Assembly: GCA_018823835.1 (NCBI GenBank)
Contig: JAHJHT010000002.1
Coordinates: forward strand, 310,001-374,000
Origin: Alphaproteobacteria bacterium
GTDB lineage: Bacteria; Pseudomonadota; Alphaproteobacteria; Rhizobiales; Rhizobiaceae
Direction of reading: 5' to 3'
Length of the DNA: 64,000 nt
Part shown: piece by piece, positions 21,837 through 27,251 of the stretch
Layout: each line of letters starts with the position of its first letter
Position numbering within the stretch: position 1 is the stretch's first letter
The notes under the pieces: model-generated
What the model was told of the DNA's origin: nothing
Databases searched by the model: none
What the model saw: the letters and a program-made list of their open reading frames with translations, nothing else
Translations under genes and position numbers: made by a program

Positions 21837-22454
21837 TCAGCTGTGGGCGAAGATGTCCTCTTCGGCCCAGCCCATGAGGTCGAGCTTGGCCCGCGTCGGC
21901 AGGAAGCGGAAGCAGGCGTCGGCCTCCTTGGCGCGGTTTTCCCGCGCAAGCCGTGCCATCAGCACCTCGCGCAGCCGGTGCAGATAGAGCACGTCGGAGG
22001 CTGCATATTCGAGCTGCTCGGGCGTCAGGGTCTCGGCCGCCCAGTCGGACGACTGCTGAACCTTGGACAGGCTGACACCAAGCAGTTCGTTGCAGATGTC
22101 CTTCAGCCCGTGCCGGTCGGTGTAGGTACGGGTCAGGCGCGAGGCGATCTTGGTGCAGAACACCGGCTCGGCCATGACGCCGAAGGCATTGTACAGCACG
22201 GCGATGTCAAAGCGGCCGAAATGGAACAGCTTGGTGATGCTGCGGTCGCGCAGAAGCTTAACCAGGTTCGGCGCCTTCTTCTGGCCGGGCGCAATCTGGA
22301 TCACGTCGGCTGTGCCGTCGCCGGGCGAGATCTGCACCACGCAGAGCCGGTCGCGGTGCGGGTTGAGCCCAAGCGTCTCGGTGTCGATGGCCACCGCCGG
22401 TACGGCGTAGTGGGCGAGGTCCGGCAGGTCGTGCTTGTGGAAGCGGATGGTCAT
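21837..22454 (-). CDS. RNase D-like 3'-5' exonuclease
   Basis: A 205-residue DEDD-type nuclease. The Exo motifs are VAIDTETLGLNP (Asp-x-Glu), LFHFGRFDIAVL (Asp) and LEYAASDVLYLHRL (Tyr-x3-Asp, the DEDDy subtype). It is about half the length of classical RNase D and lacks the HRDC domains, as in the short alphaproteobacterial forms. It trims the 3' ends of structured RNA, probably tRNA precursors. The gap to the upstream dipeptidase gene is 15 bp, so the two are likely cotranscribed. Confidence 0.9.
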   Translation of the reverse strand: MTIRFHKHDLPDLAHYAVPAVAIDTETLGLNPHRDRLCVVQISPGDGTADVIQIAPGQKKAPNLVKLLRDRSITKLFHFGRFDIAVLYNAFGVMAEPVFCTKIASRLTRTYTDRHGLKDICNELLGVSLSKVQQSSDWAAETLTPEQLEYAASDVLYLHRLREVLMARLARENRAKEADACFRFLPTRAKLDLMGWAEEDIFAHS

Positions 22455-22469: not shown

Positions 22470-23858
22470 TCAGCGGGCCAAGGCATCGAGGATGCGCGCC
22501 CAGGAGCGCTGGCCCTTGTGGAATGAGGTTAGCTCATATTTCTCGTTCGGTGAATGGATACGGTCGTCGTCGAGTGCGAAACCGACGAGCAGCGAGTCCA
22601 TGCCGAGATAGGTCTGGAAGTCGCCGACCACCGGGATCGAACCACCACCGCCCGTCATGATGGCCGGGTTCGGCCACTCGTCCGACAGCGCCGCCTTGGC
22701 TTTGCTGAGGAAAGGCGCGTCGTACGGCAGCTGGATGCCCGGCGAACCGCCGTGCTCGTGGAAGGAGACAGAACAGTCGGCCGGAATGCGCTCCTCGACG
22801 AATTTCCGGAAGGCGGCCCTGATCTTTTTCGGGTCCTGCTTGTGCACCAGGCGGAACGAAACCTTGGCCGAAGCTTCGGCCGCGATCACCGTCTTGAAGC
22901 CCTTGCCGGTATAGCCGCCGGAAATGCCGTTGAACTCGGCGGTCGGCCGCGCCCAGACCAGTTCAACAGCCGAGCGACCCTTCTCGCCGGCCAGTTCGGA
23001 AAGACCGATCGGGCCGAGCATTGTCTCGGCGGTTTCGCCAAGCGTCTCCCATGACTTCAGGATCTGCGACGGTGTTTCCTCCACGCCGTCGTAAAAGCCC
23101 GGAATGGTGACGCGGCCCGTATCGTCGTGCACGTCCGCGAGGATTTTCGCCAGGATGCGGATCGGATTGGCTGCGGCACCGCCATACTGCCCCGAATGCA
23201 GGTCCCGGTTGGCGGCGCGAACGGTGATCTCCTCGCCGACCAGGCCACGCAGCGACGCCGTGATCGCCGGCGTCTCGCCGTCCCACATGCCGGTGTCGCA
23301 GACGAGTGCGAAATCTGCCTTCAGCTCGTCGCGGTTGGCGTCGAGAAACGGCTTCAGCGACGGGGAACCGGATTCTTCCTCGCCTTCGAACAGGATGGTG
23401 ACGCGACACGGCAGTTGGCCGTTGACCTTCTTGTAGGCGCGGCAGGCCTCGACGAAGAGCATTAACTGCCCCTTGTCGTCCGACGAGCCCCGCCCCGTGA
23501 TGACCTTGCGTCCGGGCTCGATCTCCTTGATCGCCGGCTCGAATGGGCCATCGGTCCAGAGCTCCAGCGGGTCTACCGGCTGCACGTCGTAGTGGCCGTA
23601 GAAAAGCACATGCGGGCTGTCGGCAGAGGGTCCTTCGTGGTGAGCGACGACCATCGGATGGCCGGGCGTATCGCGCAGGCTGGCGTCGAAGCCGATCGAG
23701 CGCAAATCCTCTACCAGCCACTCGCCGGCGCGCCTGCAATCGGCCGCATATGCGGGATCTGTCGAAATCGAAGGAATGCGCAGCAACGCAAAGAGCCGCT
23801 CGAGGCTGGCATCAAGATTGGAGTCGAGATGGTCGAGAACAGGGGGGAGTGACAACAT
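22470..23858 (-). CDS. M20-family dipeptidase
   Basis: A 462-residue zinc peptidase. Metal-binding features include HVLFYGHYDVQPVDP (His and Asp), GRGSSDDKGQLMLFVEA (bridging Asp), LFEGEEESGSPS (catalytic Glu pair), VCDTGMWDG (Asp) and a C-terminal IHSPNEKYELTSFHKG (His). An inserted dimerisation domain spans roughly residues 190-350. Relatives cleave dipeptides such as beta-Ala-His or X-Gly; the substrate is not determined. No signal peptide is seen, so it acts in the cytoplasm. Confidence 0.9.
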   Translation of the reverse strand: MLSLPPVLDHLDSNLDASLERLFALLRIPSISTDPAYAADCRRAGEWLVEDLRSIGFDASLRDTPGHPMVVAHHEGPSADSPHVLFYGHYDVQPVDPLELWTDGPFEPAIKEIEPGRKVITGRGSSDDKGQLMLFVEACRAYKKVNGQLPCRVTILFEGEEESGSPSLKPFLDANRDELKADFALVCDTGMWDGETPAITASLRGLVGEEITVRAANRDLHSGQYGGAAANPIRILAKILADVHDDTGRVTIPGFYDGVEETPSQILKSWETLGETAETMLGPIGLSELAGEKGRSAVELVWARPTAEFNGISGGYTGKGFKTVIAAEASAKVSFRLVHKQDPKKIRAAFRKFVEERIPADCSVSFHEHGGSPGIQLPYDAPFLSKAKAALSDEWPNPAIMTGGGGSIPVVGDFQTYLGMDSLLVGFALDDDRIHSPNEKYELTSFHKGQRSWARILDALAR

Positions 23859-23970
23859 TGCCGGATTGCCTTTCGAATCTGCGCGGCAACCCTAGTGCAT
23901 CAAAGGTTGGAATGGGACAGTCGATTGTCTCAATTCAGCGGCAAACCGGTCGAAATCCAATGGATTCGCA

Positions 23971-24128
23971 ACAAAAACGGACAAGAAAATGCCGCCGTGG
24001 CGGAGGGGACAACCACGGCGGCTTTACTACAAACGATGCGGCAGCCCGGAGAGGGGGGATGAGGCTGCCGCAATGTCCGGTCTAGGCGGGGGACGGGCCA
24101 TACTCCGGACTTCGGCTAAAAACCGCCG
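23971..24128 (-). ncRNA. Candidate three-hairpin small RNA with C-rich loops
   Basis: This lies in the 435-bp gap between the dipeptidase and polA. Read on the minus strand there are three consecutive hairpins: 24110-24075 (GTCCGG stem), 24071-24038 (GCGGCAGCC stem, 9 bp perfect) and 24022-23991 (GCCGCCGTGG stem, 10 bp perfect). Their loops carry CCCGTCCCCCGCC, CCCCCCTCTCC and CCCCTCC, which could pair with Shine-Dalgarno sequences. The last stem is followed by ATTTTCTTGTCCGTTTTTG, a T-rich tail. A CTTGAA box with an AT-rich element 17 nt on (about 24168-24140) is a possible promoter. The architecture resembles the alphaproteobacterial anti-SD-loop sRNAs (alpha-r14/cuckoo type). I see nothing else in the gap beyond the polA leader. 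Confidence 0.6.
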
Positions 24129-24293
24129 ATGACGATCATTTGGATATCTGAACATGGCGATTCAAGGGCACGAAGATTACAGTTGTGTAACATAGCCGTG
24201 ATCGCCGTTTGGTGCCCTTCCACACGTCAGTAATGATTGCGAAAAGTGGCCTTTGAGATGGACACGCTTTTGGCCGCGCGCTAGGCCTTGCGC

Positions 24294-27251
24294 ATGAAAA
24301 AAGGCGACCATCTCTTCCTTGTCGACGGTTCCGGCTACATCTTTCGCGCCTACCACGCGCTACCGCCCCTGACCCGCAAATCCGACGGCTTGCCGGTCGG
24401 TGCGGTCTCCGGCTTCTGCAACATGCTGTGGAAACTGATGCTGGAGGCCCGCAACACCGATGTCGGCGTCGTCCCGACGCATTTCGCGGTGATTTTCGAC
24501 TATTCGTCCAAGACGTTCCGCAACGACCTCTATGCCGAGTACAAGGCCAACCGCTCGGCGCCGCCGGAAGACCTGATCCCGCAATTCGGCCTGATCCGCC
24601 AGGCCACCAAGGCCTTCAACCTGCCCTGCATCGAGATGGACGGTTTCGAAGCCGACGACCTTATAGCCACTTATGCCCGCCTTGCGCACGAGGCCGGCGC
24701 GGACACCACCATCATCTCCTCCGACAAGGACCTGATGCAACTCGTCGGACCGAGCGTGTCGATGTACGACCCGATGAAGGACCGCCAGATCGGCGTGCCG
24801 GAAGTCATCGAGAAATGGGGCGTACCGCCAGAGAAGATGATCGATCTGCAGGCGCTGACCGGCGACTCCGTCGACAACGTGCCGGGCGTTCCTGGCATCG
24901 GCCCGAAGACGGCGGCTACGCTCCTCGAACAGTTCGGCGATCTCGACACGCTGCTGGAACGCGCCGCCGAGATCAAGCAGGAGAAGCGCCGCCAGTCGAT
25001 CATCGAGAACGCCGACAAGGCGCGAATCTCGCGTGAACTCGTAACGCTGAAGAACGACGTCGCGATCGCCGAGGGGCTGGCCGATCTCGTGCTGCATCCG
25101 CCGGACGGCCCCAAGCTGATCGCCTTCCTCAAGACGATGGAATTCTCCACGCTTACCCGCCGCGTCGCAGAGGCGACTGGTACCGAGGCGACCGAGATCG
25201 ACCCTGCAGCCGTTGCCATAGAGACCGGCGACAAGGCGCATGGGCCTGACGTTGGCTCCGGATCACCGGGCGAAGGCGAAGCTGCGGGCGACGGATCCGC
25301 ATCCGCCAGCGCTTCTCCTGGCTCCGCCATCGCGGCCCATTTCGGCGGCACCCCGGCGGCACTGGCCGCTGCGCGCGCCGAGGCGGCCGTCTCCAGCAAG
25401 GTCGAGACGTCGAACTACGCCTGTATCCGCGACTTGCAGACGCTGGCCGACTGGGCCGCCGAGGCCCTCGAGGCCGGACAGCTTGCGCTCGCACTGCACA
25501 CTTCCTCGATAGATCCTATGCAGGCTGAGATCTGGGGAATCTCGGTCGCCATCCGGCCGGGCCGCGCCGGCTACATTCCGATCGCTCACCGCAGTGGCGC
25601 CGAGGACCTGCTCTCGGGCGGTCCTGTCGAGGGCCAGATTTCGTTGCGCGAGGCGATCGCCCTGCTGAAACCCGTGATCCAGGACCCGTCGGTGCTAAAG
25701 ATCGGCCACGACATCAAGTCGAGCTACATCGTGCTTGCCCGGCACGGCATCGAGCTTGGCCCGTTCGATGACACGATGCTGATCTCCTACGTGCTCGACG
25801 CGGGCACGGCGGCGCATACGCTGCAGGGCCTTGCCGACCGCTGGCTCGGCCATGCGACGCAGACGCTGAAGGAACTTGCCGGCAGCGGACGCTCGGCACG
25901 CAGCTTCGACCAGATCGAGATCGAAAGCGCCACGCCCTATGCCGCAGAGGCTGCCGACGTCACGATGCGGCTCTGGGACGTGCTCAAGCCGCGCCTAGCC
26001 GCCAAGAGCCTGGTTTCGGTGTACGAGCGGCTGGAGCGCCCGCTGGTGCCGGTGCTTGCCCGCATGGAACAGCGCGGCATCTCCGTCGACAGGCAGATGC
26101 TTAGCCGGCTTTCTGGCGAGCTCGCCCAGGGTGCCGCAGCGCTTGAAGACGATATCTACAGGCTGGCCGGCGAGCGCTTCACCATCGGCTCGCCCAAGCA
26201 GCTCGGCGACATCATGTTCGGCCGCATGGGCCTGCCGGGCGGTTCAAAGACCAAGACGGGGCAATGGTCGACCACCGCGCAGGTACTCGAGGAACTCGCC
26301 GCCGAGGGCCACGAGTTGCCGCGCAAGATCGTCGACTGGCGGCAGCTGACCAAGCTCAAGTCGACCTACACCGACGCGCTGCCGGGCTACATCCACCCCG
26401 AAACCAAGCGGGTGCATACCTCCTACGCCATGGCGGCCACCTCGACTGGCCGCCTGTCCTCCAACGAACCCAACCTGCAGAACATCCCGATCCGCACAGC
26501 GGCCGGCCGCAAGGTGCGCACCGCCTTCATCGCCGAGAAGGGCAACAAGCTGATCTCGGCGGACTATAGCCAGATCGAGCTGCGCATCCTCGCCCATGTC
26601 GCTGACATTCCTCAGCTGAAGGCGGCATTCGCGCATGGCGACGACATCCACGCGATGACGGCGTCCGAAATGTTCAACGTGCCGGTCGAAGGCATGCCGC
26701 GCGAGGTGCGCAACCGCGCCAAGGCGATCAATTTCGGCATCATCTACGGCATCTCGGCCTTCGGGCTCGCCAACCAACTGTCGATTCCGCGCGAGGAAGC
26801 CGGCGACTACATCAAGCGCTATTTCGAGCGCTTTCCCGGCATTCGCGACTACATGGAAAGCACCAAGGCATTCGCTCGCGAGCACGGCTATGTCGAGACG
26901 ATCTTCGGGCGCCGGGCGCACTATCCGGAAATCCGGGCGTCCAACCCGTCGATCCGCGCCAACAGCGAGCGCGCGGCGATCAATGCGCCGATCCAAGGCT
27001 CGGCCGCAGACATCATCCGACGCGCCATGGTGCGGATGGACGCGTCGCTCGATGACGCCGGCCTATCGGACGTCCGCATGCTGCTGCAGGTACACGACGA
27101 GCTCGTCTTCGAGGCCCCGGCCGCCAGTGTCGAAGCCGCCATCCCGGTCATCCGCAAAGTGATGGAAGAGGCCGCCATGCCGGCGATTTCGCTGTCGGTG
27201 CCTTTGCAGGTCGACGCGCGTGCCGCCGACAACTGGGACGAGGCGCACTGA
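24294..27251 (+). CDS. polA: DNA polymerase I with degenerate proofreading domain
   Basis: A 985-residue family A polymerase for repair and Okazaki fragment maturation. The 5'-3' nuclease domain (1-290) has DGSGYIFRAYHAL and SDKDLMQLV. A long Ala/Gly/Ser-rich linker (~300-370) follows. The 3'-5' exonuclease-like domain lacks its acidic residues: the DTE motif reads ALH, KYD reads KSS and YAAED reads YAAEA. The polymerase domain is intact, with ADYSQIELRILAH, RAKAINFGIIYGIS and QVHDELVFE. I use ATG 24294, because MKKGDHLFLVDG is the usual N-terminus; TTG 24288 is the alternative. Proofreading activity is probably absent. Confidence 0.95.
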   Translation: MKKGDHLFLVDGSGYIFRAYHALPPLTRKSDGLPVGAVSGFCNMLWKLMLEARNTDVGVVPTHFAVIFDYSSKTFRNDLYAEYKANRSAPPEDLIPQFGLIRQATKAFNLPCIEMDGFEADDLIATYARLAHEAGADTTIISSDKDLMQLVGPSVSMYDPMKDRQIGVPEVIEKWGVPPEKMIDLQALTGDSVDNVPGVPGIGPKTAATLLEQFGDLDTLLERAAEIKQEKRRQSIIENADKARISRELVTLKNDVAIAEGLADLVLHPPDGPKLIAFLKTMEFSTLTRRVAEATGTEATEIDPAAVAIETGDKAHGPDVGSGSPGEGEAAGDGSASASASPGSAIAAHFGGTPAALAAARAEAAVSSKVETSNYACIRDLQTLADWAAEALEAGQLALALHTSSIDPMQAEIWGISVAIRPGRAGYIPIAHRSGAEDLLSGGPVEGQISLREAIALLKPVIQDPSVLKIGHDIKSSYIVLARHGIELGPFDDTMLISYVLDAGTAAHTLQGLADRWLGHATQTLKELAGSGRSARSFDQIEIESATPYAAEAADVTMRLWDVLKPRLAAKSLVSVYERLERPLVPVLARMEQRGISVDRQMLSRLSGELAQGAAALEDDIYRLAGERFTIGSPKQLGDIMFGRMGLPGGSKTKTGQWSTTAQVLEELAAEGHELPRKIVDWRQLTKLKSTYTDALPGYIHPETKRVHTSYAMAATSTGRLSSNEPNLQNIPIRTAAGRKVRTAFIAEKGNKLISADYSQIELRILAHVADIPQLKAAFAHGDDIHAMTASEMFNVPVEGMPREVRNRAKAINFGIIYGISAFGLANQLSIPREEAGDYIKRYFERFPGIRDYMESTKAFAREHGYVETIFGRRAHYPEIRASNPSIRANSERAAINAPIQGSAADIIRRAMVRMDASLDDAGLSDVRMLLQVHDELVFEAPAASVEAAIPVIRKVMEEAAMPAISLSVPLQVDARAADNWDEAH

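Follow-up and report, generated by a model that had tools for sequence, protein, structure and literature searches.

Locus and identity of the RNA

The window, the whole 64-kb stretch of DNA that was analysed, belongs to a 4.65-Mb genome and carries on its minus strand a small-RNA gene, with polA as its divergent neighbour on one side and the gene of an M20 family peptidase on the other. The features of the locus, in window coordinates, are listed below.

24294..27251, plus strand: polA (DNA polymerase I), divergent neighbour of ar7, with Pfam DNA_pol_A and 5'-3' exonuclease domains
24176..24191, minus strand: conserved dyad GTTACACAACTGTAAT (RTTAC-N6-GTAAY), a putative transcription-factor site and the sole exact copy in the genome
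24138..24168, minus strand: core promoter CCCTTGAA-N17-CCAAAT of RpoD/RpoH type, a single exact copy in the genome
23986..24131, minus strand: ar7 sRNA gene of 146 nt (Smr7C/SmelC023/sra03 family), running from about 24131 (5') to 23986 (3') according to the Rfam match and the block identical to relative L073
24112..24129, minus strand: 5' hairpin H0 (UCGGC/GCCGA), from the minimum free energy (MFE) fold; unpaired in the Rfam consensus
24075..24110, minus strand: hairpin H1 from the fold, stem of 6 bp plus 3 bp, loop CCGUCCCCC (24096-24088) with the conserved seed GUCCCCC
24037..24072, minus strand: hairpin H2, stem of 11 bp (10 Watson-Crick and one GU), loop CAUCCCCCCUCUCC (24061-24048) with the conserved seed CCCCUCUCC
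23991..24022, minus strand: terminator hairpin H3, 11 bp (10 Watson-Crick and one GU); its loop contains CCCCUCC, and the hairpin runs out into AUUUU and a U-rich stretch
22470..23858, minus strand: M20 family peptidase gene, downstream of ar7 (Pfam Peptidase_M20)

The peptidase gene starts 127 bases downstream of the RNA on the same strand. Beyond it lies an RNase D-like 3'-5' exonuclease of 205 aa (21837-22454, minus strand), which adjoins the peptidase in many relatives with long enough flanks.

An Rfam search placed the minus strand at 24131-23986 in ar7 (RF02342): the hit scored 113.7 bits, where 60 bits is the gathering cut-off, and covered the complete model (positions 1-145 of 145). 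This is the sole Rfam match at gathering score in the window and the only ar7 match in the genome; matches to 6C, snoRNA and microRNA families in the region stayed below cut-off and looked like chance. A first-pass annotation, made from the sequence alone, had drawn the unit at 24128-23971. Its location was right, but its ends are corrected to 24131-23986 by the Rfam match together with a block of identity to a congeneric genome. It had also placed the small RNA on the minus strand, and folding agrees: this strand has a folding energy of -70.2 kcal/mol (z = -6.3), which none of 200 shuffles attained, whereas the plus strand folds more weakly (z = -3.7).

PolA of the window is 92% identical to that of uncultured Rhizobiaceae bacterium L073 (isolate Biocath_Alpha_17), whose matching genome, G038, falls in the same genus as the window's; the PolA proteins of Mesorhizobium, Pseudaminobacter, Aminobacter, Chelativorans and Brucella are 74-78% identical. 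Window and L073 share the RNA without a single difference (146/146), while the DNA around it is 70-88% identical (polA 87.6%, the promoter stretch 81%, the gap between the sRNA and the peptidase gene 70%, and the part of the peptidase gene that was compared 83%). The identical block spans 23986-24131 with not one base more at either end, and these are the very ends given by the Rfam match. The minus-strand RNA gene is real, and it is the ar7 orthologue of a catalogued RNA.

The equation of Rfam ar7 with SmrC7/sra03/SmelC023 of S. meliloti rests on common location, size and structure and on Smr7C as a name that the two share, rather than on the alignment of a named S. meliloti sequence. The window's RNA shows a full-length match above cut-off, the divergent polA, two central hairpins whose stems covary and whose loops are fixed, a terminator hairpin and the expected length, and it differs from the named RNA in its host only, an uncultured member of the Rhizobiaceae (in the GTDB sense) related to Mesorhizobium. 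In S. meliloti, SmrC7 (sra03, SmelC023) occupies the interval from polA to SMc02851; RACE and Northern blotting gave a mapped 5' end, a length of 148-150 nt and a 106-nt processing product, and the RNA is approximately 13-fold more abundant in nodules (PMC2780559). It is treated further in PMC2573895 and PMC2873474. In a survey of Rhizobiales sRNAs, SmelC023 RNAs have four hairpins and a terminator, the loops of their middle domain are conserved, and all members of the family but one adjoin the DNA polymerase I gene (PMC3927594). The downstream neighbour is the M20 peptidase gene in the window but a MarR gene in Rhizobiaceae proper (PMC3927594).

Across 80 named polA loci, ar7 lies on the strand opposite to polA in 78, and no ar7 was found at E <= 0.01 in the other two (L074 and L121, from Oryzicola mucosus and Mesorhizobium sp. 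65-26). An ar7 match was present in 125 of 151 genomes sampled from the window's GTDB family, 100 of them above cut-off, and was missing from most of the 1-2-Mb genomes in this sample. In an order-wide sample every match above cut-off fell within the family, and in a class sample only the window's own genome exceeded the cut-off; two sub-threshold matches from outside the family (L031 and L032) were unconvincing as ar7 RNAs. L042 and L063 carry ar7 matches with no polA found within flanks of approximately 3 kb, so ar7 can lie away from polA. Genome G084 has two ar7-like copies (L058 and L059, from approximately 3001), and polA is missing from the flanks of both. The third hairpin seems to be absent from one copy, and loop 2 is altered in the other. 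As a find, the locus itself is mostly ordinary, being the orthologue of a catalogued RNA, but the family is kept in most of the genomes sampled, among them symbionts and associates of plants and animals, and expression of the S. meliloti orthologue goes up strongly in alfalfa root nodules.

Hairpins and conserved loops

The MFE fold of the RNA consists of four hairpins, H0, H1, H2 and the terminator H3. Three hairpins of 6, 9 and 10 bp had been proposed before; these are present, but H0 had been missed, and the main stems comprise 6+3, 11 and 11 pairs. Of 57 relatives, 54 have the H0 stem, whose compensatory variants include CGGC/GCCG, CGAC/GTCG and CAAC/GTTG. On the 3' side of H3, the T-rich end noted earlier is indeed U-rich, although it reads AUUUU and then CUUGUCCGUUUUUG rather than a long unbroken run of U, and a simple terminator scan did not call H3 with this end. 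The arrangement of four hairpins, the last of them an intrinsic terminator, is strongly supported.

Covariation, which the first-pass annotation had named as a check, is extensive. In a MAFFT alignment of 40 members, 25 of the 36 stem pairs have changed on both sides, compared with 14.1 +/- 1.6 in shuffled alignments, none of 500 of which reached this count; such changes affect 10 of 11 pairs in H2 and 9 of 11 in H3. In the same alignment 94.2% of cells pair, and shifting the partners by 1-3 columns lowers pairing to below 48%. A second set of 79 matches gave 27 of 36 pairs changed on both sides, a count that leans towards the model because the matches were aligned to a model built in the same analysis. 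The C-rich loops, also pointed out previously, proved to be constrained across family members: of 65, 61 carry the loop 1 seed GUCCCCC, 54 the loop 2 seed CCCCUCUCC and 54 a CCUCC in their final 45 nt. The stems thus vary so long as pairing survives, while the loops are nearly fixed, as this evidence strongly supports. Degenerate ar7 copies occur in L071 and L066 (from approximately 3001), hosted by genomes of 1.1 Mb and 3.6 Mb, respectively; loop 1 with its GUCCCCC is gone from both and the terminator loop is retained.

Promoter and phased upstream dyad

ar7 has a conserved promoter of its own, as is strongly supported: the -35 element CTTGAA is present in 84 of 98 relatives and the 17-bp spacer in 83 of 98. 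Published elements are CTTGAA-N15-16-CCTATAT for RpoH1 (PMC4843759) and CTTGAC-N17-CTATAT for RpoD (PMC8844928). The ar7 -35 element agrees with that of RpoH1 and is one base off that of RpoD, and its -10 element, CCAAAT, matches the two in part. The promoter of the SmrC7 orthologue appears under RpoD and RpoH1/2 in a review (PMC7143759).

Upstream of the promoter, the pattern RTTAC-N6-GTAAY occurs at one place in the genome, compared with two per strand for a reversed control pattern. It is conserved and a probable transcription-factor site. The dyad consensus gave no match in a literature search, and neither it nor the CTTGAA-N17-CCAAAT promoter is described in the papers that were read. Among the 120 polA loci in which both promoter and dyad were found, to which the count is confined, the gap from the dyad to CTTGAA is 9-11 bp in 106, 19-21 bp in 12, 31 bp in one and 41 bp in one, with none in between; the distance from the dyad to polA ranges from 74 to 529 bp across these loci. 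The gap class changes at least seven times on a tree of PolA N-termini. If any phase were allowed, we estimate the chance of such phased gaps at (3/10.5)^7, or approximately 2 in 10,000; the dyads at 31 and 41 bp match less well, and dropping both weakens this estimate but leaves the phasing unlikely to be accidental. Gaps of whole helical turns suggest an activator. On the simplest reading of these spacings, a putative regulator would have to bind the helix face that RNA polymerase also occupies, and its target would be the sRNA rather than polA.

Mode of action and alternatives

The RNA had initially been assigned to the ar14 or cuckoo RNAs, or to their relatives, with three anti-Shine-Dalgarno loops. 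The Rfam search of the minus strand did return a family, but it was ar7 rather than ar14 or cuckoo. Like ar7, ar14/NfeR1 (RF02344) and the cuckoo RNAs (SmelA075/SmelA099) have several hairpins with variable stems and fixed C-rich loops, and in four other genomes (L067-L070) the second, weak match of the ar7 model, at 31-34 bits, is a true ar14 gene; this score backs the looser term "relative" weakly at most. Membership itself did not hold up, and we consider it barely credible. The ar14 model gave no match at E <= 10 in 23800-24300, and the CcsR1 model (RF02791), for the cuckoo/CcsR families, scored 20.5 bits at the locus, far under its cut-off of 65.3. Separate, multicopy ar14 genes lie elsewhere in the window's genome, with five matches, four of them above cut-off. 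Published ar14 has three hairpins with CCUCCUCCC in each loop (PMC10746234), whereas the three loops of ar7 differ from one another and none of them (CCGUCCCCC, CAUCCCCCCUCUCC or the CCCCUCC loop) contains CCUCCUCCC. Duplex energies with AAGGAGGUG are -5.4, -7.0 and -9.4 kcal/mol for loops 1, 2 and 3, compared with -13.6 kcal/mol for the ar14 loop. Only loop 3, with its CCUCC core, is a fair anti-Shine-Dalgarno sequence, so one third of the earlier claim stands and loops 1 and 2 drop out of it. ar7 and ar14 are alike in outline and may be related or convergent. Another Rhizobiales sRNA, EcpR1 (SmelC291/sra33), resembles ar7 in having a conserved loop seed and a link to stress, and in S. meliloti it acts as a repressor of dnaA and gcrA (PMC4414408); it is, however, a separate family at a different locus, and published locus data rule it out as the polA-adjacent RNA (PMC3927594).

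Two further explanations concern what the RNA does. Its position on the same strand as the M20 peptidase gene, which was found together with polA in 119 loci, would suit a cis-acting leader or attenuator of that gene. The spacing to the peptidase gene nevertheless ranges from approximately 0.1 to 0.9 kb, the MarR gene takes its place in Rhizobiaceae proper (PMC3927594), and in S. meliloti the RNA is transcribed independently, as a molecule of approximately 147 nt that ends at a terminator of its own (PMC2780559, PMC2873474), which makes a leader very improbable. Hyperconserved loops on covarying stems would fit equally well if the fixed loops were bound by a protein or by other RNAs, as in a sponge. 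The genome holds no excess of extended complements to the loop 1 and loop 2 motifs (12 compared with 30, and 4 compared with 6, for reversed-pattern controls), which is in keeping with that idea; therefore targeting of mRNAs, if any, would proceed via short seeds. On the other side, a protein-binding RNA comes with no candidate protein, and mRNA pairing is the mode of action of further rhizobial RNAs whose conserved loops are GC-rich or C-rich (NfeR1, PMC10746234; EcpR1, PMC4414408). We regard a protein-binding or sponge function as unlikely, though less so than a leader.

We consider it probable that ar7 (Smr7C) is a trans-acting small regulatory RNA whose loops pair with mRNAs and whose expression follows stress or growth state. 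The exposed C-rich loops may serve as seeds for G-rich stretches at or near the ribosome-binding sites of several mRNAs, and pairing would block translation or trigger decay. This would proceed without Hfq, the SmrC7 orthologue not having been recovered with FLAG-tagged Hfq (PMC2848018). The terminator loop (CCUCC) could bind Shine-Dalgarno sequences generally, whereas loops 1 (GUCCCCC) and 2 (CCCCUCUCC) would be restricted to fewer mRNAs. Expression would respond to stress or growth state through the RpoD/RpoH-type promoter and a putative activator at the phased dyad. The cut that yields the 106-nt form in S. meliloti lies approximately 45 nt in, near loop 1, and the short form would therefore keep only hairpins 2 and 3. 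A more specific version, in which ar7 is switched on throughout the family by a putative factor at RTTAC-N6-GTAAY on the polymerase's face of the helix and acts via the GUCCCCC and CCCCUCUCC seeds rather than as a general anti-Shine-Dalgarno RNA, is one that we put forward tentatively, at a little short of an even chance.

No published ar7 target was found in the literature. Among the matches to the extended loop complements, one in L156, over the possible start codon of a transporter-permease-like gene, contained a mismatch and was too weak to retain. The targets and regulators of ar7 could be sought by way of its loop seeds, its additional 5' hairpin and the phased dyad.
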